DNA of 38,153 nt, taken from Candidatus Cloacimonadota bacterium (lineage in GTDB: Bacteria; Cloacimonadota; Cloacimonadia; JGIOTU-2). Below the pieces are notes generated by a model. It was not told where the DNA came from. It saw nothing but the letters and a program-made list of their open reading frames with translations, and did no database searches. The stretch's first letter is position 1. Each line of letters starts with the position of its first letter. The stretch is taken from assembly GCA_014382495.1 (NCBI GenBank), contig JACNJR010000039.1:1-38153 (forward strand), in the 5' to 3' direction. The position numbers were made by a program, and so were the translations under genes. Below are positions 11,175-36,056 of this stretch, piece by piece.

Positions 11175-13103
11175 TTACCAAACAAATACAATTCCGCTAT
11201 TCGGAAAAACCCAATCTTTTTTATGCGAATTTATTGTAATTTTTCCATTTTTCTCTTCAGAATTTGGAAATTTCTCTTTCCCAACAATAAATGAAATTGC
11301 CTCAACATTCTTTATTTCTGTCTCGGAAAAATCAAATGCAACCGAAATTCCTTTTGTCAATTCAGAAAAATAAACGCCTAATTGGTGCTTCGATTTTGGA
11401 TAATAAGTCGTTGTATCAATCGTGAATTGCACCTCATTTCCAAGAAGATTTTTGAGTTTTGGATGAGAACATTCAATCTCGAAATTTGTTGTGTTATTCG
11501 CTTTGACAAAGCAAGTTAGCAAAATATCATTTACCATAATTTTATCGATTTTGAAAGAATTTTTCAAGTCAATTTTGTTATCAAGAAGCCAACGATATTC
11601 TACATTTTCAGATTGAAAATACTGCTCAAGATTTTTTAAACTATTTGCACAAACAATCTTAAAATTATCTCTTGTCAGAATTTTGTGATACGACAATTTC
11701 GTTTTTGCAAGAAAAAATTGCTCGGATATTTTTATATCATTTTTAATTTCAAAGAATTTTATAGAGTGAACAAAATTTGTTTTCCAGCCAATTTTCTTAT
11801 CGTAAGTTGAAAATAAATTTTCCAAAATTTTTTGATGGATTATGCTTCCAATTTCCTTGCTGTTAAGTCGTTGATTTAGCGATGTTTGAATTATTTTTTC
11901 CAATTTCGTATCTGAGAAATCCTTTGCGATAAAGGTTCTTCTGGAAATTGGCTCGATCATCTCATTTTTCTTTTCTCTCACAAAAATTCTCTGAGCTCGT
12001 CTTCCAAAATTGCAAACGGTTTCATAAGACAATCCTTTGTAAAGTCGTGAAATCTCTTCAGCGGAGATTGAATTAGCACCTTCGTTTCCGAGCAAAATTA
12101 CTTCATCGCCGACCTTTGCATTTTTGACATTTGAGATATCGACAATAATCATATCCATCGTAACTCTTCCGAGAATTGGACATTTTTCGCCATTGATTAT
12201 CACTTTTCCGATATTTGAAAGCAAAAAATTATATCCATCTCCATATCCGATTGGAAGAATTGCGGCACGCATTGGTTTTGCCGTCACAAAAGTTTTCTGA
12301 TAACTTATTCCAAAATCTGCTGGAAATTCTTTTATCAAACCGATTTTGGACTTAAATGTCATAACCGGTCGCAGTTGTATTTTTGATTTCAATAATTCAT
12401 CTGTATAAATTCCGAATGACATCAGCCCAAGCCGAACCATATCGTATTGCAATTCAGGAAAATTTATAGTTGCAGCGCTATTTGAAATATGAACTATTTC
12501 AGGTTGAATTCCTTTTGATTTCAAGTTTTTAAGCAATATTTCAAATCGTTTGTTCTGGACTTGTGAAAAATCATTTTTTTCGATTTCGCTCATTGAAAAA
12601 TGTGAAAATACGCCTTCAATTTTGATATTTTTCAATTTCTGAAATTCAGAAATAACTTCATCTGTTTTGTTCCAAAAAAATCCTGCGCGTCCCATTCCTG
12701 TATCGAAATTTATATGAACTTTTTTGATTTTTTTTCTAATTTTTGCAAATTCATTTAGCTCTTTTGCAAACTGAAAAGTTGAAATCGACGGCGTTAAATT
12801 GTATTCAAAAATATCTTCAATTTCAGAAGGAAAAGATGGACTCAATATCAAAATTCTGCTTTCAATTCCTTCCAATCTCAGCAGAATTCCTTCGTCAGAA
12901 TTTGCGATTCCAAACCAATTAATTCCAAGTTTTTCAGCTTCATCTGAAATTACCGCAGAACCATGCCCATACGCATCGGCTTTCACAATTTGCATTATTT
13001 CAACTTTAGGTTTCAGAAATTTTTGTATCTGATGAATATTGTATCGATAATTATCAAGATTGATAACTGTCCAGCTGCGAAATTGATTGTTTTTCATTTG
13101 CAT
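11175..13103 (-). CDS. alr: Alanine racemase with ~270-aa C-terminal extension
   Basis: VKADAYGHGS PLP-Lys motif, HINFDTGMGRAGF, LPIGYGDGY, GRVTMDMIIVDIS, GDEVILLGNEG. The ORF is 642 aa against ~370 aa for typical Alr. Confidence 0.93.
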   Translation of the reverse strand: MQMKNNQFRSWTVINLDNYRYNIHQIQKFLKPKVEIMQIVKADAYGHGSAVISDEAEKLGINWFGIANSDEGILLRLEGIESRILILSPSFPSEIEDIFEYNLTPSISTFQFAKELNEFAKIRKKIKKVHINFDTGMGRAGFFWNKTDEVISEFQKLKNIKIEGVFSHFSMSEIEKNDFSQVQNKRFEILLKNLKSKGIQPEIVHISNSAATINFPELQYDMVRLGLMSFGIYTDELLKSKIQLRPVMTFKSKIGLIKEFPADFGISYQKTFVTAKPMRAAILPIGYGDGYNFLLSNIGKVIINGEKCPILGRVTMDMIIVDISNVKNAKVGDEVILLGNEGANSISAEEISRLYKGLSYETVCNFGRRAQRIFVREKKNEMIEPISRRTFIAKDFSDTKLEKIIQTSLNQRLNSKEIGSIIHQKILENLFSTYDKKIGWKTNFVHSIKFFEIKNDIKISEQFFLAKTKLSYHKILTRDNFKIVCANSLKNLEQYFQSENVEYRWLLDNKIDLKNSFKIDKIMVNDILLTCFVKANNTTNFEIECSHPKLKNLLGNEVQFTIDTTTYYPKSKHQLGVYFSELTKGISVAFDFSETEIKNVEAISFIVGKEKFPNSEEKNGKITINSHKKDWVFPNSGIVFVW

Positions 13104-23120: not shown

Positions 23121-24944
23121 ATGAATATAATTTATGATATAATTGTAGTTGGCGGCGGTCACGCTGGTTGCGAGGCTGCGGTTGCTGCTGCTAAACGCGG
23201 GGCAAATACACTTCTTTTTGTGATTAAACTCGAAACAATCGGGCGAATGTCTTGCAATCCAGCTGTTGGTGGACTTGCTAAGGGACATCTCGCGCGAGAA
23301 ATAGACGCACTTGGTGGCGTTATCGGCCAATGTATCGATAAAACAGGAATTCATTTTCGAATGCTGAACAAGAGCAAAGGTCCAGCTGTTTGGGCACCGC
23401 GTGCTCAGGCAGATAGAATGAATTATCAGCTTGAAATGCGTTCGATTGTAGAACATCAAAATAATCTCGAAATCAAAGAAGCATTGGTTGAAGAATTGCT
23501 TATCAAAAATGGTGAAGTAAAAGGAGTAAAAACACAGTATCAGCAGAAGTATTTTAGCAAAATAGTAATTCTCGCGCCTGGAACTTTTTTGAGAGGGAAA
23601 ATTCATATCGGTTTAAAAAAATATTCCTCGGGAAGAGCTGGCGAGTTTTCTTCTGAAAAACTATCAAAATCACTTCAAAAAAACGGAATAAATCTTTCTC
23701 GATTTAAGACCGGAACCCCACCACGACTTGATTCACGCACTCTTGATTTTTCAAAACTTGAAGAACAATTTCCTGATAAACCACCCGTAAAATTCTCATT
23801 TTATACCAACATCAAACCAAAAAATTCTGTAAGCTGTTTTTTAACTTCAACTAATTCCAAAACTCACAAAATCATATCAAAAAATCTGAAAAAATCTTCA
23901 CTTTTCAGCGGAAATATCACGGGAATTGGTGCACGATATTGCCCTTCAATCGAAGATAAAATAAAAAAATTTCCAGAAAAAGAACAACATCAAATTTTTC
24001 TCGAACCTGAAGGTCTGAATACTTTTGAAATTTACGCAAATGGTATTCCTACAAGCTTCTCGCCGAAAATTCAACACAAAATTGTACAATCCATTTCCGG
24101 ACTTGAAAAAGCAAAAATTATGAGATACGGTTACGCAATTGAATATGATTGTGTTCCAACCGAACAAATCTTGATAAGTTTGGAGGCAAAAAAAATCAAA
24201 GGGTTATTTCTTGCCGGCCAAATAAACGGCACCTCAGGTTACGAAGAAGCTGCTGCACAAGGCATTATCGCAGGAATAAATGCAACAAACAAATTGTTAA
24301 AAAAATCCCCAATAATATTAGGAAGAGACAATTCTTACATCGGAGTTTTGATCGATGACATCGTTACAAAGGGCGTCGATGAACCATATAGAATGTTTAC
24401 GGCGCGCGCCGAATATCGCCTTCACTTGCGACAAGATAATGCTGACGAAAGATTGATGCCGCGCGGTTATGAATTAGGACTAATAAGTAAAAAACGATAT
24501 GATAAATTTTGTGATGCACTTAAAATTAAAAAGCGAGAAATTAAAAAATTAAAATCAGAAACTGCCAATTCAAAAGGTAAAAAATCGCACAAAATGATTG
24601 AGGTTTTACGCCGTCCTGAAATAAATTTCGATGATTTGAAAAAATTTGGATATAAAATTAAAAATGATATTTCAGATTCTCTTAAAGAAAAAATTGCTCT
24701 TGAAATAAAATATGAAGGTTATATCAAGCGGCAACTACGCGAGATAGAAAAATTTAATTATCTTGAAACTAAGGAAATTCCGCCCGATTTAGATTATATG
24801 AATTTTAACTCAATCTCTTACGAGGCTCGTGAAAAATTATCGAAAATAAAACCAATCTCAATCGGACAAGCATCAAGAATTCCTGGTGTGACATACGCCG
24901 ATATTTCTGCATTACTCATAAAATTAAAATCCATTTATGGATAA
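23121..24944 (+). CDS. mnmG: tRNA uridine-5-carboxymethylaminomethyl(34) synthesis enzyme MnmG (GidA)
   Basis: DIIVVGGGHAGCEAAVAAAKRGANTLL, MSCNPAVGGLAKGHLAREIDALGG, GLFLAGQINGTSGYEEAAAQGIIAG. Confidence 0.97.
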   Translation: MNIIYDIIVVGGGHAGCEAAVAAAKRGANTLLFVIKLETIGRMSCNPAVGGLAKGHLAREIDALGGVIGQCIDKTGIHFRMLNKSKGPAVWAPRAQADRMNYQLEMRSIVEHQNNLEIKEALVEELLIKNGEVKGVKTQYQQKYFSKIVILAPGTFLRGKIHIGLKKYSSGRAGEFSSEKLSKSLQKNGINLSRFKTGTPPRLDSRTLDFSKLEEQFPDKPPVKFSFYTNIKPKNSVSCFLTSTNSKTHKIISKNLKKSSLFSGNITGIGARYCPSIEDKIKKFPEKEQHQIFLEPEGLNTFEIYANGIPTSFSPKIQHKIVQSISGLEKAKIMRYGYAIEYDCVPTEQILISLEAKKIKGLFLAGQINGTSGYEEAAAQGIIAGINATNKLLKKSPIILGRDNSYIGVLIDDIVTKGVDEPYRMFTARAEYRLHLRQDNADERLMPRGYELGLISKKRYDKFCDALKIKKREIKKLKSETANSKGKKSHKMIEVLRRPEINFDDLKKFGYKIKNDISDSLKEKIALEIKYEGYIKRQLREIEKFNYLETKEIPPDLDYMNFNSISYEAREKLSKIKPISIGQASRIPGVTYADISALLIKLKSIYG

Positions 24945-25575
24945 TGATATTGCCGAATTTTCAAATTTTCTTATTACTCATAAATTCTCTTTGGAATTAA
25001 TTGGGAAGTTTAAAATTTATCAATCAATTTTAGCTGAAAAAAATCAAAAATTAAATCTTGTTTCAAAAAAATCATTAGAAAAAGTTTGGATTTCTCATTT
25101 CTTGGATTCAATCCTAATTTGCGATGAGTTCGTCTTTTCTGATAAATCCATTTTGGATTTTGGAACTGGTGCTGGATTTCCCGGAATGCCCCTGAAATTG
25201 CTTTTTCCAAAAATGAATTTATTTCTTTTGGAATCGAAAAGAAAAAAAACACTTTTTCTGCGCTATTTGTCAGAAAAACTTGACTTGCAAAAGACAAAAA
25301 TATTAAATGAACGCATTGAAAATTTAGATGATTCATTTCATAATTTCTTCGATTTTATTTTAGTTAGAGCGGTAAAAATGAAAATAAATTATTATGAAAA
25401 ATGCTTTCAAATGTTGAAAAAAGATGGCGCGATGATATTATATAAAGGAGAAGAAATCAAAACAGAACTTAATAAAATCAATCGTTTGGCATTTTTTGCA
25501 AATGTACAAAATTTTCAAAAAAAGTATTCATTTTTTAAAATAAAAAATTATATTTTGGTACGGAAAAATGGCTGA
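24937..25575 (+). CDS. rsmG: 16S rRNA (guanine(527)-N7)-methyltransferase RsmG (GidB)
   Basis: QKLNLVSKKSLEKVWISHFLDSI, ILDFGTGAGFPGMPLKLLFP, FFDFILVRAVK. Confidence 0.93.
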   Translation: MDNDIAEFSNFLITHKFSLELIGKFKIYQSILAEKNQKLNLVSKKSLEKVWISHFLDSILICDEFVFSDKSILDFGTGAGFPGMPLKLLFPKMNLFLLESKRKKTLFLRYLSEKLDLQKTKILNERIENLDDSFHNFFDFILVRAVKMKINYYEKCFQMLKKDGAMILYKGEEIKTELNKINRLAFFANVQNFQKKYSFFKIKNYILVRKNG

Positions 25576-26338
25576 ATTAATTGCAATTGTGAACCAAAAA
25601 GGCGGAGTTGGAAAAACCACAACTGCGGTAAATCTTGCTGCTGCTTTGGCAAATCGTAGAAAAAAAGTTCTCCTTGTTGATTTAGATTCACAAGGCAATT
25701 GCACAAGTGGACTTGGTATTGATAAAAGACGTATTGATAAACAGATATACGATTTATTGCTTGGTGAAAATGATATTTTTTCCGCAATCCTACAAACTGA
25801 AACTTCAAATCTGAAAATTATTCCGTCAAATATCGACCTGATCGGCGCTGAGGTAGAATTATTGTCATTTCTAGATAAGGAAAAAAGATTAGCCAAAATT
25901 CTTAGTAAATTGAACAACAAATTTGACTTTATTCTTATAGATTGCCCACCAGCATTGAATATTTTGACCATTAATGCTTTCGTTGCGTGCAAGCATTTGT
26001 TAATTCCAATCCAATGCGAATATTATGCATTAGAAGGAATTGCGCAACTTTTGAAAACAATAAAATTAATTCAAGATAATTTGAACAGAAATTTATCAAT
26101 TTTGGGGATTTTATTAACAATGTACGATAGAAGATTAGTTCTCGCAAAACAGGTGAGAGATGAGATTTGCAAGTATTTTGGTGATAAAGTTTTTAGCACA
26201 ATAATTCATAGAAATATACGGCTTGGGGAAGCGCCTGGCTTTGGAAAACCAATTTTTTCTTACGACAAATATTGTCGCGGCTCAAAAAATTACAAAAAAT
26301 TGTGCAAAGAGGTATTACAACGCTTTGAAAGGAAATAA
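25568..26338 (+). CDS. parA: Chromosome partitioning ATPase ParA/Soj
   Basis: AIVNQKGGVGKTTTAVNLAAALA, VDLDSQGNCTSGLG, DFILIDCPPALNILTINA. Confidence 0.96.
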   Translation: MAELIAIVNQKGGVGKTTTAVNLAAALANRRKKVLLVDLDSQGNCTSGLGIDKRRIDKQIYDLLLGENDIFSAILQTETSNLKIIPSNIDLIGAEVELLSFLDKEKRLAKILSKLNNKFDFILIDCPPALNILTINAFVACKHLLIPIQCEYYALEGIAQLLKTIKLIQDNLNRNLSILGILLTMYDRRLVLAKQVRDEICKYFGDKVFSTIIHRNIRLGEAPGFGKPIFSYDKYCRGSKNYKKLCKEVLQRFERK

Positions 26339-26339
26339 A

Positions 26340-27170
26340 ATGAGAAAACTTGGAAAGGGTTTAGCAGCCCTTATCGAAACGGATAAAAGTGATTCCAAAA
26401 AAATTATATTAATCGATTGCAAAACGATTAAATTTAATCCATATCAGCCGAGGACGAAAATCGATTCACAAAAAATTCAAGAATTAGCAAAGTCAATTTC
26501 TGAAAATGGCTTAATTCAACCGATTATTGTTAGAAAAATTGCAGAAAATCAGTATGAATTGATCGCTGGTCAGCGACGGCTTTCGGCAGCGCAACTTGCG
26601 GGCTATGAGAAAGTTCCAGCAATTATTCGTTCGGCAAAAAATCAGGAAATTTTAGAATTTTCGATTATCGAAAATATTCAAAGAGAAGATTTGAATCCGT
26701 TGGACGAAGCGAGAGCTTACGAACGACTTGCGAAAGAGTTCAAAATGACGCATTATGAAATCGCAAAATCTGTCGGAAAAAATCGCACAACCATTTCTAA
26801 CTTGCTCCGATTACTGAAGTTACCGCAAAAAGCAAAAGAGATGATTTTAGAAAACAAAATTACTTCCGGACACGCAAGAGCGATTCTCAAAGTCGCTCCG
26901 AAATCACAAATTGAATTTGCGGAATATATTTCGAAAAATAGTATTTCAGTTCGTAAAGCGGAAGAACTTGCCACTTCATTCGGAAAAGTTGAAAAACGAA
27001 TCAAACAAAAGAAGAAAGATGAAAATATTATTGCTGTCGAAAATCAACTCACCAAAATTTTTGGAACGAAAATAAAAATTGTCGGAATGAAAAAAGGGAA
27101 ACTCGAAATCCATTTTTATTCCGAAGAAGAATTGAATAATCTTGTGAATAAACTTATAAATATATTATGA
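26340..27170 (+). CDS. parB: Chromosome partitioning protein ParB/Spo0J
   Basis: RKLGKGLAALIE; NPYQPRTKID; LIAGQRRLSAAQLAG; FSIIENIQREDLNPLDEARAYERL; HTH VGKNRTTISNLLRLLKLP. Confidence 0.96.
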   Translation: MRKLGKGLAALIETDKSDSKKIILIDCKTIKFNPYQPRTKIDSQKIQELAKSISENGLIQPIIVRKIAENQYELIAGQRRLSAAQLAGYEKVPAIIRSAKNQEILEFSIIENIQREDLNPLDEARAYERLAKEFKMTHYEIAKSVGKNRTTISNLLRLLKLPQKAKEMILENKITSGHARAILKVAPKSQIEFAEYISKNSISVRKAEELATSFGKVEKRIKQKKKDENIIAVENQLTKIFGTKIKIVGMKKGKLEIHFYSEEELNNLVNKLINIL

Positions 27171-27826
27171 AACATAAACATTTTGTCGGCATTTTATTGT
27201 TCATAATTGCCGTTATACTTGTCGGTTATGTCGGAATTTCACTTTATTTAATTTTAGATCAGACCTCAAAAATTGAACTTTTGAAAATTGAAAATTATTC
27301 CAATTTACAGAAGATAAAAGAGTTAGAAGATATGATAATTTCCGCTAATCAATCAAGCAAATCTAAGTTTGTGCCACGAGGAACAAAATTACCCCAAATT
27401 TCTCTTAAATCAAAAGAATTGCAAATTGCAAATTTGAATTTTCTCAATACCCAACAATATATTCCTAATTTTTTGCCAACGACAAATCACATTATCACAA
27501 AATCATTTCTTCCAGAAAAAAATCATTTTGGAATAGATTTAGCGGGGGAAAATGGAAATCCAATTTTCGCGGCTGCTACTGGTATAGTTGAAAAAGTCAA
27601 AAATGATAGCATCTTCGGAAAGTCAATTATAATCGACCATTTGAATGGATATAAAACTTTTTATGGTCATAATTCAGAAATTTTGGTTGACGAAAATTTC
27701 TTTGTCAAAAAGGGAGATATCATTGCGAAACTCGGAAACACAGGAAGAAGCACTGCTCCTCATTTGCACTTTGAAATTTTATTTAAAGAAGAAAACATAA
27801 ATCCAGAAAAAATGATAAAAAAATAA
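27167..27826 (+). CDS. M23 (LytM) family peptidase, membrane anchored
   Basis: N-terminal TM and coiled coil; NHFGIDLAGENGNPIFAAATGIVEKV...GYKTFYGHNSE...GDIIAKLGNTGRSTAPHLHFEI retains the H-x3-D and HxH metal ligands. Confidence 0.93.
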   Translation: MKHKHFVGILLFIIAVILVGYVGISLYLILDQTSKIELLKIENYSNLQKIKELEDMIISANQSSKSKFVPRGTKLPQISLKSKELQIANLNFLNTQQYIPNFLPTTNHIITKSFLPEKNHFGIDLAGENGNPIFAAATGIVEKVKNDSIFGKSIIIDHLNGYKTFYGHNSEILVDENFFVKKGDIIAKLGNTGRSTAPHLHFEILFKEENINPEKMIKK

Positions 27827-27838
27827 GGAGAATTCAGT

Positions 27839-28246
27839 ATGAAAGAGATGTCTGAAAATTTGAACACAATCATCGGAAAGGATTCAAAGGTTATTGGTGA
27901 AATCCATTCTGAGGGAAGTTTGCGAATCGACGGAAAGGTCGAAGGCGCCATCGAAGCAAAGGGATTCTTGACCGTTGGGGCAACTGCAGAAATTAAAGCA
28001 GAAATCAAAACCAAAGAAGCTCTCATCGCCGGAACAATCGATGGGAATGTCTTTGTAGATGAAAAATTAGAATTGGAAAAAACTGCGAAAATCAATGGCG
28101 ATATCCACACAAAAGTCCTTACTGTCAATACTGGCGCGCGCTTCAATGGCAAATGCCAAATGGGCTCACAAACCAATAAAAATCCTATTCACAAAAAAGA
28201 AGATGAACCAAAAAAACCAGAAGAAAAAGAACCAGAAATATTATAA
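27839..28246 (+). CDS. Bactofilin (polymer-forming cytoskeletal protein)
   Basis: IIGKDSKVIGEIHSEGSLRIDGKVEGAIEAKGFLTVGATAEIKAEIKTKEALIAGTIDGNVFVDEKLELEKTAKINGDI bactofilin repeats. Confidence 0.94.
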   Translation: MKEMSENLNTIIGKDSKVIGEIHSEGSLRIDGKVEGAIEAKGFLTVGATAEIKAEIKTKEALIAGTIDGNVFVDEKLELEKTAKINGDIHTKVLTVNTGARFNGKCQMGSQTNKNPIHKKEDEPKKPEEKEPEIL

Positions 28247-28451
28247 AGAAATTTTTTTAGGGCTTGGCTTAATTGCACAACTTGGCTTAACAATGGTCAT
28301 TTGCATTCTTGTAATGTTTTTTGTCGGAATGCAGATTGACAACTATTTTGGTTTGCGCAAAGTCGGAATTGTGATTTTCATTTTTCTCGGAATAATTACC
28401 GGAGCAATCGCCTGCTACAAACTATTAAAACGAAGTGAAAATAGAAAATAA
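28203..28451 (+). CDS. atpZ: AtpZ/AtpI-family small membrane protein
   Basis: Two TM segments, GLGLIAQLGLTMVICILVMFFVGMQIDNYFGL..GIVIFIFLGIITGAIACYKLL; immediately upstream of atp genes. Start probably ATG 28203, inside the bactofilin 3' end. Confidence 0.75.
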   Translation: MNQKNQKKKNQKYYKEIFLGLGLIAQLGLTMVICILVMFFVGMQIDNYFGLRKVGIVIFIFLGIITGAIACYKLLKRSENRK

Positions 28452-28815
28452 CAAACTTAAAAATTACATTTATCACATTTTCAAGATAATTTTCTTGACA
28501 GAAATTTTGGCTCTTTTGCTTATCGCTCAAAATTTGAAACTCTTCTTGGGATATTTTCTGGGCTCAATTGCCAGCTGTATAAATTTCTTTTTTCAAGCAA
28601 AAAGAACGGAAAAAAGTTTGAATCTACCTGAATCTCCTGCTCGTTTTGGTGCTTTCAAAAATTTTTATTTAAGATATTTAATTCTTTTCGGTGTTATGAT
28701 AATATTCGTAAAATTTCTAAAATTAAATATTTTCTCGCTTTTGGTTGGATTGGTTTCGGTTCCAATTGTTGTCACCATAAATAGTTTGGTCGAAGCAAAA
28801 AAAGATAGTAAATAA
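28435..28815 (+). CDS. atpI: ATP synthase I-like protein
   Basis: Four TM small protein (GTG start) between atpZ and atpB. Confidence 0.65.
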   Translation: MKIENNKLKNYIYHIFKIIFLTEILALLLIAQNLKLFLGYFLGSIASCINFFFQAKRTEKSLNLPESPARFGAFKNFYLRYLILFGVMIIFVKFLKLNIFSLLVGLVSVPIVVTINSLVEAKKDSK

Positions 28816-28816
28816 A

Positions 28817-29650
28817 ATGCAAAAACGGACAAAGAAGATACTTTATATTTTCCTTATTCTGCTCGTTCTCGAAGGAATAATTTCCATCGGATTGAATCAC
28901 GAACTCAGAATTGGATTTAACGAAAAGGGGAAATTTATTATCCAAAATGTGAAAGCTGAAAAAAGTATTCAAGAACAAATTAGAGAAGAATTTCAATCCG
29001 ACAAAATTGTTAAAATCGCAGGAAAATTCCCAATAAATTGGAATGTAACTAAAATGATTTTTATTGTAGATTTGATTCTGATTTTATTAGCTTTTTTGGT
29101 GAAAAAATCGCTTCGTCTTATTCCATCAAAAATTCAGATAATTTCCGAAATGCTATACTCGTTTTTCAGAGATTTAGTAACGGAAACCGTAGGAAAAGAT
29201 AGGGCTTATTTCACGCCATACATTTTCACGATTTTCTTTTTTATTTTCACTTGTAATATCGTTGGATTAATTCCAATTCCAGGAAATATGGAGCCAACGA
29301 GAAATCTGAATGTCCCTTTGGGAATGGGATTTATGGCGATAATTATCGTTCATTTTACCTCAATAAAAGCAAAAGGAATCAAAGTATATTTGAAGGATTA
29401 TGCTGAGCCACTTTTCTTTATGGCGCCATTAAATGTTGTGGGCGAACTCGCCAAAGGAATCTCAATCTCCTTCCGACTTTTTGGCAATATTTTGGGCGGC
29501 GCAATTATTATTTTAGTCATCTCAAATCTGACAAAATTTATTCTGGTTCCGATTGGGCTAAATCTCTTTTTCGGATTATTTATCGGAACGGTTCAGGCAT
29601 TCGTTTTCACAATGCTTGTCCTGTCATACACAGCCGTTGCAATAAAATAG
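28817..29650 (+). CDS. atpB: F-type ATP synthase subunit a
   Basis: FFMAPLNVVGELAKGISISFRLFGNILGGAIII with the essential Arg; C-terminal FIGTVQAFVFTMLVLSYTAVAI. Confidence 0.96.
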   Translation: MQKRTKKILYIFLILLVLEGIISIGLNHELRIGFNEKGKFIIQNVKAEKSIQEQIREEFQSDKIVKIAGKFPINWNVTKMIFIVDLILILLAFLVKKSLRLIPSKIQIISEMLYSFFRDLVTETVGKDRAYFTPYIFTIFFFIFTCNIVGLIPIPGNMEPTRNLNVPLGMGFMAIIIVHFTSIKAKGIKVYLKDYAEPLFFMAPLNVVGELAKGISISFRLFGNILGGAIIILVISNLTKFILVPIGLNLFFGLFIGTVQAFVFTMLVLSYTAVAIK

Positions 29651-29659
29651 GAAAAAATT

Positions 29660-30388
29660 ATGAATATTGAAACCGCAGTTTTCGTAGCAGCGTATCTTGG
29701 TGCGGCATTTAGCATCGGCATTTCATCTTTGGGAGCAGGAATTGGCGAAGGTATCATCGCGGGGAACGCTTCATACGCAATTATGCGACAACCAAAAGCG
29801 CGAGATATTCTATTGCGAAATATGCTGATTGGACAAGCAATTACGGAAACAGGCGCGATTTTTAGCTTAGTAATCGCGATGCTTCTGATGTTTGGCGGAA
29901 TGATAAATCCAGAAGGTGGATGGCAAGCAGTTGCTTCTCTTTTTGGAGCAGGATTGGCAATCGGAGCCGGAACCGTCGGCGCTGCATTTGGAAATGGTTA
30001 CACGGGCGGAGAAGCGATTAAAGGTATGGGAAGAAATCCGAGAGAATCAAAATTGCTGACAGCAAATATGCTGATTGGACAAGCGTTATCACAAACTTCG
30101 TCAATATTTGCTTTGGTGATTTCGATGCTATTGTTGTATTCAACTCCGGCTGGAAATGATTTGGTAAAATCTGTCGCGTTTGTCGGGGCATCGTTTGCTA
30201 TCGGATTTGGCACATTCGGTCCTGGATTCGGGATTGGAATCGTCGCCGGAAAAACGGTTGAGGGAATAAGTAAATTCCCAAAACGCTCTGCACTTCTTGT
30301 CAGAACGATGTTCGTTGGGGCGGCGGTTTCTGAGTCAACTTCAATCTATTCATTAGTTGTAGCATTTTTATTAATATTTGTAGCATAA
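29660..30388 (+). CDS. Triplicated (three-hairpin, 6-TM) ATP synthase subunit c
   Basis: Three homologous c hairpins in one 242-aa ORF: GAGIGEGIIAG..NMLIGQAITETGAIFSLVIAMLL; GAAFGNGYTGG..NMLIGQALSQTSSIFALVISMLL; GPGFGIGIVAG..TMFVGAAVSESTSIYSLVVAFLL. Confidence 0.95.
   Translation: MNIETAVFVAAYLGAAFSIGISSLGAGIGEGIIAGNASYAIMRQPKARDILLRNMLIGQAITETGAIFSLVIAMLLMFGGMINPEGGWQAVASLFGAGLAIGAGTVGAAFGNGYTGGEAIKGMGRNPRESKLLTANMLIGQALSQTSSIFALVISMLLLYSTPAGNDLVKSVAFVGASFAIGFGTFGPGFGIGIVAGKTVEGISKFPKRSALLVRTMFVGAAVSESTSIYSLVVAFLLIFVA
29690..30385 (+). repeat. Three internal c-subunit hairpin repeats (approx. 29690-29899, 29933-30142, 30173-30385)
   Basis: Translated internal homology; ion-site residue is E63 in repeat 1, Q145 in repeat 2, E225 in repeat 3. 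Confidence 0.9.
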
Positions 30389-30407: not shown

Positions 30408-30647
30408 ATGGAAAGTGCAATAATTCGTGCCGCTGCTCTTTTGGGAGCCGGCATTTGTATGGGTTTTGGGGCAATTGGACCTGGTATTGGCGAAGGTTTC
30501 GCAGCGGGAAAAGCATGCGAAGGAATTGCTCGTTCGCCAGAAAACGCAGGGCTTCTCACTCGAACAATGCTCGTTGGTCAAGCTGTATCGGAATCGACAG
30601 GTATTTATTCGCTTGTTATCGCCCTTCTGCTCATTTTTGCTGTGTAA
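30408..30647 (+). CDS. atpE: ATP synthase subunit c (single hairpin), Na+-type motif
   Basis: GAIGPGIGEGFAAGKACEGIARSPE...MLVGQAVSESTGIYSLVIALLLIF. Confidence 0.96.
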   Translation: MESAIIRAAALLGAGICMGFGAIGPGIGEGFAAGKACEGIARSPENAGLLTRTMLVGQAVSESTGIYSLVIALLLIFAV

Positions 30648-30696: not shown

Positions 30697-31197
30697 ATGG
30701 TTAGCATCGATTATACGCTCATTTTGGTTATTATAAACTTCGTTCTGCTTCTCGTTATTATGAAAAAGTTGCTTTACAAACCGCTTATGGATTTCTTATC
30801 TCAACGAGAAAAGCAGATAAAAGATGACCTTGCGAGTGCAAAAAACAATAAAGTCGAATCTGAAAAATTGATTGAAAAGCAGAAAGAGACACTTCAGAAA
30901 GCCAGAAAAGAGTCACGAAAATTACGCGATGAAGTTGTTAAAAATGCAAAAATTTCAGGTGAACAAATAATTCGCGATGCCCGCGAACAGAACGAAATTA
31001 TCATTGCTGAAGCACAAGAAGTTATTCAATCTGAAGTGAAAAAAGCGAAGAAAGAAATTGAGAAAGAGATTGGAGAATTTGTAGTTTCGCTTACGGGAAA
31101 AATCATTGATAAAAAATTCACCGATAAGGACGATTTGGCGTTGATTGATAATGTGATTGAGATGGAGATAAAGCAGAAAAAGGAGAAAAAAGCTTGA
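30697..31197 (+). CDS. atpF: ATP synthase subunit b
   Basis: N-terminal TM, LLYKPLMDFLSQREKQIKDDLASAKNNK..., long amphipathic helix. Confidence 0.95.
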   Translation: MVSIDYTLILVIINFVLLLVIMKKLLYKPLMDFLSQREKQIKDDLASAKNNKVESEKLIEKQKETLQKARKESRKLRDEVVKNAKISGEQIIRDAREQNEIIIAEAQEVIQSEVKKAKKEIEKEIGEFVVSLTGKIIDKKFTDKDDLALIDNVIEMEIKQKKEKKA

Positions 31198-31724
31198 TAA
31201 AAAATATCATTGCAAAACGCTATTCCAAGGCGTTAATTGGTGCTTTTTCTGACGAAAAATTAAAATCTCTTGAAAACGAAGCGAAACTTCTCATCAATTT
31301 TATGGATAAGAATCCGAAAATTGAAGCATTTTTTCTTTCACCTATTGCGGATAATGAGATAAAAAAAGAGGTTCTAATTCCGCTTGCCGAAGGATTAAAA
31401 TTTTCTCATTATTTTCATAATTTCCTGAAAATTTTGATTGACAAAGATAGAATTTATTTCCTTCGAGATATCTGCGATGAAATAGTCAACCAAATCCATA
31501 ACCGACTTCTTATTCGGGAGTTCGAGATTATTACAGCTTCTAAAATTGACGAAAATGTTGTAAAAAAAATTAAAAGTTTTGTTAATAAATATGTTTCTGG
31601 CGAAATTCATTTTACATACAAAATCGACAAAAAAATCAGAGGTGGATTTCTCGTCTTTAGCAAAAATTTGGTGTTAGATGCTTCCATCAAAAATAATTTA
31701 AAAAATATCGAAAAAAAATTTTAG
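31194..31724 (+). CDS. atpH: ATP synthase subunit delta
   Basis: IAKRYSKALIGAF N-terminus; C-terminal KIDKKIRGGFLVFSKNLVLDASIKNNL. Confidence 0.94.
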   Translation: MIKNIIAKRYSKALIGAFSDEKLKSLENEAKLLINFMDKNPKIEAFFLSPIADNEIKKEVLIPLAEGLKFSHYFHNFLKILIDKDRIYFLRDICDEIVNQIHNRLLIREFEIITASKIDENVVKKIKSFVNKYVSGEIHFTYKIDKKIRGGFLVFSKNLVLDASIKNNLKNIEKKF

Positions 31725-31761: not shown

Positions 31762-33318
31762 ATGAAAATTCAACCAGATGAAATTAGCAGAATTATTCAA
31801 GAAAAAATTAAAGACCATCACTACAGTGTTGATGTTTCTGAAGTTGGAAAAGTGATTGAAGTTGGCGACGGCATTGCCAGAATTTACGGGTTGAAAAATG
31901 TTATGGCGAACGAATTGGTCTTGTTCAAAAATGACATTTACGGAATGGCTCTCAATCTTGAAGAGGATAATGTCGGTTGCGTTATTCTCGGTAATTCCAC
32001 CCAAATTAAAGAAGGCGACATTGTCAAAAGGACAAAAAAAATCGTGCAAATTCCTGTCGGCGAAGAACTCTTGGGAAGAATCGTAAATCCTCTTGGATTG
32101 CCGCTTGACAAAATGGGAAAAATTGAGACAAAAAAAACTTTGCCAATTGAGAGAAAAGCTTTGGGAGTTGTGCAGCGACAACCCGTGAAAGAACCACTAC
32201 AAACTGGTTTAAAGGCAATTGATTCGATGATTCCAATTGGAAGAGGACAACGAGAATTGGTAATTGGTGATCGTCAAACGGGAAAGACGACTTTTGCCGT
32301 TGATACAATTATCAATCAACGAGACACCGATGTTTACTGCATTTATGTAGCCATTGGGCAGAAACGCTCAACTGTCGCAAAGGTTGTGGAAGTTCTTCGT
32401 GAACATAATGCTTTTGATTATACTGTAATCGTCTCGGCGACTGCTTCGGAATCTCCGTCAATTCAGTATCTCGCTCCGTATGCGGGTGCAACTATTGGTG
32501 AATTTTTTCGGGATCAAGGCAAACACGCCCTCGTGATTTACGACGATCTTTCTAAGCATGCGATTGCGTATAGACAGTTGTCGCTTCTTCTCAGACGACC
32601 TCCTGGCAGAGAGGCATTTCCCGGAGATGTTTTCTATCTTCATTCTCGGCTTTTGGAGCGGGCTTCGAAATTGAATGACGAACTTGGTGGTGGCTCATTG
32701 ACAGCAATTCCAATTATTGAAACGCAAGCAAATGACATCTCTGCCTACATTCCGACCAATGTGATTTCCATAACTGATGGGCAAATTTATCTCGATACGA
32801 AATTATTTTATTCGGGAATAAGACCCGCAATCAACGCTGGATTATCCGTTTCTCGAGTTGGCGGAAATGCACAACTCAAAGCAATGAAGGATGTTGCTGG
32901 AAAACTTCGTATGGAATTGGCACAATTTCGCGAATTAGAAGCATTTGCAAAATTTGGAGCTGAACTCGATAAGGAGACGCAAAAACAGCTCACGCGTGGA
33001 TACCGGCTCGTCGAAATTCTGAAACAAAACCAATATGTTCCAATTCCGGTTGAAAAACAAATTATTACGCTTTTTATGGCATATAATGGATATTTAGACG
33101 ATTTGCCGTTAGAGATAATTCCAGATGTTGAAAACGAAATCTTCGAAATGATTGATGCCGAATATAAAGAACTCAGCAAAAAATTACTCGAGCCAGAAGG
33201 AATTACAGAAGAATTGAAAGAAAAATTACATAAATTTTGTAAAGATGTTAAATCAAATTTTGAACACGAAATAATCCAATCTTCTGAAACTGAGCAAGCT
33301 GAATCTGAAGGGAAATAA
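31762..33318 (+). CDS. atpA: ATP synthase subunit alpha
   Basis: [56 protein letters not shown]. Confidence 0.98.
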
Positions 33319-34181
33319 TGCCAAGTTTGAAGGAAATTAAACAGAGAATAAATTCGGTTACAAGCACTCGCCAAGTTACCAGTGCGATGAAAATGGTCTC
33401 TGCCGCTAAATTGCAGAAAACCCAGCAGTGGATTCTAAATGCCAGACCTTATTCTGACGAATTGGATAAAATTCTGCTCTCGCTCGCAAGTCGAACACTT
33501 AGAGATGAACATCCTTTGCTAAAAAAAATCGATGAGGAGGATGTGAAATCTGTTGCGATAATTGTAGTTACCGCTGACAAAGGACTTTGCGGCGCTTTCA
33601 ATATGAATATTATTAGAAAAGCGGAAGAGGTAATCCGAAAAAATAAAGGTAAAAAAATCGAACTTATTTGTGTTGGGAAAAAGGGTAAAAAATATTTCGA
33701 AAAGAAAGGACACACAATTCGCGAAGAGTATATCAATTTTTTTAACAAATTGGAATTTGAGCACAGTCGCGATATAATGAACATCGTCACAACTTCCTTT
33801 CTCAAAGGCAAATACGACAAAACCATTATTATATTTAATGAATTTAAATCTGCAATTCAGCAAAATATCGTGGAAAAACAGTTGTTGCCTTTGAGTGAAT
33901 TCGAAGAGAGTGATGAGAAATTTCTGGCTTCTTATCTCTTTGAACCAGAAGAATCTAAGCTTTTGGATGAGTTAATAAAAAAGCATCTTGATGTGCAAAT
34001 TTGGAGAGTCCTCCTCGAATCTTCTTCTGCCGAACAGGGTGCGCGAATGATCGCTATGGACGCCGCTACGGACAGTGCCGGTGAAATGATTGCCGATTTA
34101 ACTCTCGAATATAATCACAAAAGACAGGATAATATTACAAAAGAAATAATCGAAGTATCGTCCGCAGCAGAAGCATTGTAA
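33318..34181 (+). CDS. atpG: ATP synthase subunit gamma
   Basis: KEIKQRINSVTSTRQVTSAMKMVSAAKL; ADKGLCGAFN; ARMIAMDAATDSAGEMI. Confidence 0.97.
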   Translation: MPSLKEIKQRINSVTSTRQVTSAMKMVSAAKLQKTQQWILNARPYSDELDKILLSLASRTLRDEHPLLKKIDEEDVKSVAIIVVTADKGLCGAFNMNIIRKAEEVIRKNKGKKIELICVGKKGKKYFEKKGHTIREEYINFFNKLEFEHSRDIMNIVTTSFLKGKYDKTIIIFNEFKSAIQQNIVEKQLLPLSEFEESDEKFLASYLFEPEESKLLDELIKKHLDVQIWRVLLESSSAEQGARMIAMDAATDSAGEMIADLTLEYNHKRQDNITKEIIEVSSAAEAL

Positions 34182-34237: not shown

Positions 34238-35635
<1,398 letters not shown>

Positions 35636-35639
35636 AAAA

Positions 35640-36056
35640 ATGAGCAATAATAAATCGCCCAAAAAACTTCTCCTGAAAATCACGACTCCGAAAGGAATTT
35701 TTCTGGAAAAAAAAGTGGATGAAGTCGTCATTCCTGGAAGTGCTGGATATTTTGGCGTAATGTATGGTCACACCGCATTTCTAACCTCCATCACATCGGG
35801 AAGTTTGGAAATTTATTCTGGGGAGAAAAAAGATACATACATTATTCATAACGGCTTTTCCGAAGTAAATTTCGATGAGGTCAGAATTCTAACTGAAACG
35901 ATAGAAAAACCAGAAGATATCGACAAGAAAAGAGCAATTCAAGCAAAAGAGCGTGCAAAAAAACGCTTGAAAGAAAAAAAGAGTGAAATAAATTTTCGTC
36001 GAGCAGAATTTGCATTAAAACGCGCTATCGCCCGACTGGAAGTCGCACACGAATAA
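35640..36056 (+). CDS. atpC: ATP synthase subunit epsilon
   Basis: LLKITTPKGIFLEKKVDEVVIPGSAGYFGVMYGHTAFLTSITSG; last gene of the atp operon. Confidence 0.95.
   Translation: MSNNKSPKKLLLKITTPKGIFLEKKVDEVVIPGSAGYFGVMYGHTAFLTSITSGSLEIYSGEKKDTYIIHNGFSEVNFDEVRILTETIEKPEDIDKKRAIQAKERAKKRLKEKKSEINFRRAEFALKRAIARLEVAHE

Follow-up and report, generated by a model that had tools for sequence, protein, structure and literature searches.

A three-hairpin c subunit with a carboxylate-free middle hairpin in the F-type ATP synthase operons of Cloacimonadota, a candidate part of a hybrid Na+ rotor

Among F-type adenosine triphosphate (ATP) synthases, a rotor ring built from different kinds of c subunit is known from Acetobacterium woodii, whose ring in PDB entry 4BEM, the sole F-type hybrid ring that we found in the PDB, contains the subunit c1 once and c2 nine times (4bem_A, 9 chains), and whose ion-to-ATP ratio is 3.3 ions per ATP (PMC5662883); the c1/c2 of Clostridium aceticum represent a related F-type hybrid rotor (PMC7911925). 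The Na+ ring of Fusobacterium nucleatum (PDB 3ZK1) has instead one c type with 11 identical sites, the site holding two carboxylates, and this enzyme moves Na+ only (PMC3692424). Covalently fused hairpins also occur in the K subunits of A/V-type enzymes, which are triplicated in Methanocaldococcus jannaschii, contain 13 hairpins in Methanopyrus kandleri, and two, as NtpK, in Enterococcus hirae (PMC2359735). Here, we describe a locus in a contig of a Candidatus Cloacimonadota bacterium, namely a stretch of 38,153 nucleotides (nt), hereafter the window, whose named relatives agree with the phylum. It includes a gene for a c subunit with three hairpins (the triple c, positions 29660..30388, + strand) followed by a gene for a single-hairpin c (the single c). 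We consider it likely that the triple c is assembled with several copies of the single c into a joint ring, the hybrid rotor of an F1Fo ATP synthase coupled to Na+, and that hairpin 2 of the triple c is blank in this ring.

The triple c gene, labeled atpE1-like, is a single open frame of 242 codons, and Pfam recognizes three ATP-synt_C hairpins in its product of 242 amino acids (PF00137 three times, E = 6e-42), in agreement with a preliminary description of this DNA that had read one open frame with three hairpins from the letters alone. The ion-binding position of helix 2 is occupied by Glu63 (29846-29848) in hairpin 1, by Gln145 (codon CAA, 30092..30094, + strand) in hairpin 2, where it stands in place of the carboxylate, and by Glu225 (30332-30334) in hairpin 3, a pattern abbreviated here as E/Q/E; the partner positions of helix 1 are Glu30, Asn112, and Ile192, respectively. 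The hairpins share 42-44% identity among themselves, the closest to the single c being hairpin 3 (56% identity), and all three keep the loop motif [RK]xP, as MRQPK, GRNPR, and SKFPK. Every residue and coordinate of the preliminary description, including the Glu/Gln/Glu series, the Asn in helix 1 of the second repeat, and the CAA codon, proved correct, but its account of the locus had overlooked the single c gene, which starts 20 nt 3' of the triple c gene.

This second gene (atpE2-like, 30408..30647, + strand; PF00137, E = 2.4e-18) encodes a protein of 79 amino acids that can be aligned to the Na+ c rings of Ilyobacter and Fusobacterium. Its Glu29 in helix 1, together with Val60, Glu62, Ser63, and Tyr67, makes up a two-carboxylate Na+ motif, i.e., it contains the ligands of Na+ rotors (Gln or Glu in helix 1, and Val, Glu, Ser or Thr, and Tyr in helix 2). 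The stretch EVSESTY is present in 62 of 72 unique single c proteins, and the helix-2 Glu in 120 of 120. From these residues we infer that the rotor is Na+-coupled. The source genome also contains a complete rnfCDGEAB operon, and a report on related Cloacimonadota from Ace Lake describes Rnf, Nqr, a Na+ pyrophosphatase, and a Na+-dependent F-type synthase (PMC8542988).

The preliminary description regarded a three-hairpin c as out of the ordinary for an F-type operon that is classical in other respects. This view did not hold, as Cloacimonadota that have an F-type enzyme carry such a gene as a rule, and it extends to parts of Desulfobacterota and Planctomycetota. A triple c match was obtained in 70 sampled Cloacimonadota genomes outside the family f3, and the F-type subunit a was detected in 68 non-f3 genomes, all but one of which also have a multi-hairpin c match; in the lone exception (G116) the a gene lies at a contig end. 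Thus, a multi-hairpin c accompanies nearly every F-type ATP synthase among the Cloacimonadota genomes checked. The lack of triple c in f3 was considered as counter-evidence and dismissed, because most f3 genomes are without any F-type subunit a. Two genomes of this family, G080 (L090) and G051 (L091), have an F-type subunit a with a weak c match only, for which horizontal transfer or contamination is suggested. In two other lineages (G017, G001) the operon is split, with the single c relocated and the triple c still beside a. Outside the phylum, relatives of the multi-hairpin c were found in 43 of 396 genomes of a Desulfobacterota-centred sample and in 27 of 393 genomes of a Planctomycetota-centred one, these labels being those of the named centre genomes and not of the sampled genomes themselves; the homologues range from two to six hairpins and in most cases directly precede a single c.

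The live sites of the multi-hairpin c vary. The 65 unique triple c proteins of Cloacimonadota show the helix-2 patterns E/Q/E (25), Q/Q/E (22), E/E/E (8), E/Q/Q (6), Q/Q/Q (2; L027 and L056, which are without any carboxylate), and G/Q/E (2), corresponding to zero to three carboxylates per protein, with hairpins 1 and 3 variable. Hairpin 2 carries Gln in 57 of the 65, and on a tree built with the ion-site columns masked it needs three changes between Q and E, compared to two changes for hairpin 1 and five for hairpin 3. Hence Gln145 is mostly conserved in relatives, a check that the preliminary description had itself proposed, and the Gln of hairpin 2 looks ancestral in Cloacimonadota, with reversals to Glu. 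Hairpin 3 of most members keeps the motif VSESTxxY together with its Glu. A lost carboxylate in the multi-hairpin c is nearly always replaced by Gln, Thr or Ser being also found at the ion site in Planctomycetota, and the patterns of Desulfobacterota go from E/Q/E and E/Q/Q through E/Q/Q/Q/Q/Q. In the multi-hairpin proteins, the helix-1 partner of a Glu at the site is Glu, Ile, Val, or Leu, and that of a Gln is in most cases Ser, Ala, Asn, or Gly, a pairing that is partly due to shared ancestry.

Comparison with the nearest relative (L003, 92% identical), also E/Q/E, yielded a rate of nonsynonymous substitution (dN) of 0.051 and a synonymous one (dS) of 1.46, rates that indicate that the triple c is under strong purifying selection. 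The proportion of amino-acid change (pN) is 0.071 in hairpin 1, 0.023 in hairpin 2, the one with Gln, and 0.035 in hairpin 3, and the codon of Gln145 has changed synonymously, from CAA to CAG. Because hairpin 2 has the fewest amino-acid changes and its Gln codon has changed synonymously, the blank hairpin is maintained and not decaying. With a dS of ~1.5 separating two genes that both encode this Gln, assembly error or chance was ruled out as its source; an assembly artefact was also rejected because genes for a triple c are found throughout the phylum.

The translation signals of the two c genes differ as well. Shine-Dalgarno pairing is stronger for the single c in 56, and for the multi-hairpin c in 5, of the 61 Cloacimonadota loci where the two differ (p = 2e-11), and the single c is the stronger in 27 of the 30 differing loci of Desulfobacterota. 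In the window, the duplex energies are -9.3 kcal/mol (single c) and -4.2 kcal/mol (triple c), and in general the multi-hairpin c has a Shine-Dalgarno strength similar to that of subunit a, which is present once per enzyme. This measure is crude, as it uses starts chosen by rule and a generic anti-Shine-Dalgarno sequence, although the rule is identical for both genes; the contrast is as would be expected for one triple c and many single c per ring.

The AlphaFold2 model of the triple c, computed with 54 aligned sequences, displays three helical hairpins with a predicted local distance difference test (pLDDT) score of 95.5 and a predicted template modeling (pTM) score of 0.88. Among PDB structures, its fold is matched best by the A. 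woodii c1 (chain J of 4BEM), with a template modeling score (TM-score) of 0.82 by target and 1.6 Å over 168 columns, and V-type c subunits rank below this chain; the best PDB match by sequence is also the A. woodii c1 (4bem_J, E = 1e-22). As the best fold match is c1, two adjacent hairpins of the model pack as in the known hybrid ring. The A. woodii rotor had already been invoked in the preliminary description, and this comparison is well supported by the single c directly next, the matching gene order, and the best PDB match by both sequence and fold.

In the arrangement that we favor, one triple c would join several single c, encoded by the adjacent gene, in one ring; its hairpins 1 and 3 would carry ions, and hairpin 2, having a neutral Gln for the carboxylate, would be a structural blank that passes the stator without ion exchange. 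If 11 hairpins are assumed, in line with the known Na+ ring structures of A. woodii (one double c with nine single c) and F. nucleatum (11), a ring made of one triple and eight singles would have 10 ion sites and use 3.3 ions per ATP (10/3) vs 3.7 (11/3) for a ring without a blank. The other patterns of Cloacimonadota would give 11 (E/E/E), 9 (Q/Q/E), or 8 (Q/Q/Q) sites. A lower ion-to-ATP ratio, anticipated in the preliminary description, fits this scheme, but with one copy per 11 hairpins the effect would be modest, and it hinges on incorporation of the triple c and on its copy number. Because its live sites have changed repeatedly, from 0 to 3 in Cloacimonadota, the gear ratio seems to evolve through the multi-hairpin c, the single c being the fixed part.

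Several points weigh against the hybrid ring or limit its role. The proposed ring is deduced from genes and a predicted fold, and the AlphaFold2 model is that of one triple c chain. No difference in Shine-Dalgarno pairing between single and multi-hairpin c was seen in Planctomycetota. Na+ sites are built from residues of two adjacent hairpins (PMC2359735), and for this reason the site of hairpin 3, with Ile at the helix-1 ligand position, may bind Na+ more weakly, or bind H+. Finally, in eight Cloacimonadota triple c proteins, those with E/E/E, the fusion persists without a blank, and thus its role must go beyond a reduction of the number of ions. The proposal that the triple c exists solely for that purpose is weakened accordingly, and the fusion may have a second role in controlling ring size or assembly.

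This second role can be taken further, with the triple c placed in the ring mainly to set its size, or to nucleate or orient its assembly, and the change in ratio being a tolerated side effect. The E/E/E proteins that retain all three carboxylates are in line with this explanation, and so is the loss of one hairpin that led to E/E in the genome G004, as here the fusion is better conserved than the blank. However, the repeated swaps in particular hairpins, almost always from Glu to Gln and in three phyla, suggest that blanking is selected or specifically accommodated, and we regard this explanation as unlikely, even if it ranks first among the alternatives to the hybrid-ring reading. A further explanation is that the triple c forms a separate homomeric rotor of three or four triples, as an alternative to the ring of single c under other conditions. 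The homomeric multi-hairpin rings of V/A-type enzymes, with a triplicated K in some methanogens (PMC2359735), offer a precedent for it, but the two c genes share one operon with one set of a, b, and F1 subunits, the translation signals point to one triple for many singles, and Q/Q/Q or S/S/Q/Q proteins would yield a homomeric ring without any carboxylate; accordingly, we find it quite improbable. The same carboxylate-free members (Q/Q/Q in L027 and L056, S/S/Q/Q in L132 and L150) could instead hint at a c-derived accessory membrane protein, such as an assembly factor or a regulator, that is not part of the rotor; yet loop prolines and glycines are retained, the model packs in a ring-like manner against the A. 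woodii c1, and most members keep the Glu and the VSESTxxY of hairpin 3, so that this explanation is slightly more doubtful still. Decay of a duplicated gene, or an artefact of assembly, to which the missing Glu alone would point, has practically no probability left, as over 60 genomes carry the gene intact and at an unchanged place in the operon, dN is far below dS, and the hairpin with Gln is the most conserved.

Some individual loci illustrate the variety of these genes. A six-hairpin c with E/Q/Q/Q/Q/Q, followed by a normal single c, is encoded at L119:748-2208 and also in L122 and L124 of the Desulfobacterota-centred sample. A five-hairpin c with E/Q/Q/Q/E occurs in L103, L105, L107, L110, L113, and L117, and its last hairpin has the EVSESTY of the single c, which would fit the fusion of a hairpin of the single type; a single c of its own still comes next. 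The four-hairpin S/S/Q/Q proteins, with zero carboxylates, belong to the Planctomycetota-centred sample. The two-hairpin E/E version of G004 (L088:655-1140) is from the family of the window and was seen in one genome only; its second hairpin appears to combine helix 1 of hairpin 2 with helix 2 of hairpin 3, which looks like a natural hairpin deletion. At L048:6597-6962, a small open reading frame, apparently of the four-helix-bundle (23S ribosomal RNA intervening sequence) kind, lies between a two-hairpin c and the single c.

As for the origin of the triple c, a quick tree placed A. woodii with Ilyobacter, yet a tree constrained to keep hairpin 1 of A. woodii among the first hairpins scored better. 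In a careful hairpin tree, the first hairpins of the three phyla group together (98/95), as do the middle hairpins and some of the last ones (99/92), and both hairpins of A. woodii fall with those of Ilyobacter and Fusobacterium (100/99), apart from those of Cloacimonadota. The careful tree thus favors an origin of the triple c separate from c1, but the ~70 columns hold little signal, and the approximately unbiased (AU) test did not reject the alternative with hairpin 1 of A. woodii among the first hairpins (p = 0.093). A wider proposal, that we put forward tentatively and with less confidence than the hybrid ring itself, is that multi-hairpin F-type c subunits are a broad class of separate origin from the A. 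woodii c1, with members in at least three phyla, in which evolution tunes hairpin number (2-6) and the count of live carboxylates (0-3) around a fixed single c; in extreme members such as E/Q/Q/Q/Q/Q of Desulfobacterota, five consecutive blanks would enter the ring and lead to a ratio of ~2 ions per ATP. If true, the range of V-type pumps would be reached inside an F-type enzyme. The ion-to-ATP ratio sets the smallest energy gain that a cell can use. With runs of blanks that reach five in Desulfobacterota, the rotor would have to move past the stator ion-free over much of a turn, which poses a mechanistic question. The natural series, from two to six hairpins and from zero to all carboxylates, is suited both to testing the tuning of the ratio by blanked sites and to asking how a rotary motor crosses several of them in a row.

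The two c genes of the window are part of a complete F-type operon, all on the + strand, in the order ATPase_gene1, atpI, a, triple c, single c, b, delta, alpha, gamma, beta, and epsilon. It starts with a small membrane protein of the ATPase_gene1 family (28203..28451, exact start uncertain; PF09527, E = 1.4e-10, within the open reading frame 28095-28451), atpI (28435..28815; PF03899, E = 1.4e-10), and atpB for subunit a (28817..29650; PF00119, E = 1.1e-46), and continues after the c genes with atpF for subunit b (30697..31197; PF00430, E = 4.3e-26), atpH for delta (31194..31724; PF00213, E = 4.1e-34), atpA for alpha (31762..33318; PF00006, E = 8.8e-83), atpG for gamma (33318..34181; PF00231, E = 9.9e-95), atpD for beta (34238..35635; PF00006, E = 6.5e-72), and atpC for epsilon (35640..36056; PF02823, E = 5.2e-21, and PF00401). 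The PF00137 hairpins encoded between a and b place the triple c among F-type c subunits; it scores up to 147 bits with F-type c models and 34-62 bits with V-type K models (cut-offs 101-211), and a V/A-type operon was ruled out by the F-type neighbors and these profile scores. Directly 5' of the operon (23121-28246) are mnmG, rsmG, parA, parB, an M23-type peptidase, and a bactofilin, an arrangement that is often located near the replication origin. Elsewhere in the window, an alanine-racemase-like open reading frame (11175-13103) has ~250 additional C-terminal residues of unassigned nature, and another (688-1332) apparently fuses an N-terminal immunoglobulin-like (DUF1573-like) part with a rhodanese domain.

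Our literature search found no paper on a multi-hairpin F-type c; it did not extend to the hybrid-rotor survey of Brandt & Mueller 2015, which reportedly covers few species, with four-helix c1-type subunits. The novelty of three or more hairpins in an F-type c is for now provisional.

Among the known systems, the A/V-type K subunits resemble the triple c in their covalently fused hairpins, some with lost ion ligands in some members, but they are of a single kind in A/V enzymes, whereas the window has an F-type operon and profiles and a single c besides. The F. nucleatum ring is like the single c of the window, having Glu in helices 1 and 2 and a similar helix-2 motif, and differs in its one c type, compared to two in the window. 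The hybrid rotor of A. woodii (c1 with c2/c3) shares the gene order a, multi-hairpin c, single c, and b, the Gln for a carboxylate in the multi-hairpin c, a single c with a Na+ motif, and an anaerobic host with Rnf. It differs in that its c1 has two hairpins (four transmembrane helices), whereas that of Cloacimonadota has three with the middle one blank, and in the helix-1 ligand of the single c, which is Gln in A. woodii and C. aceticum and Glu in the window. Overall, with multi- and single-hairpin c genes in one F-type operon and at least one hairpin without a carboxylate, and with three hairpins in place of two, the triple c is of a previously known kind, that of the hybrid F-type rotors, in a new three-hairpin form.
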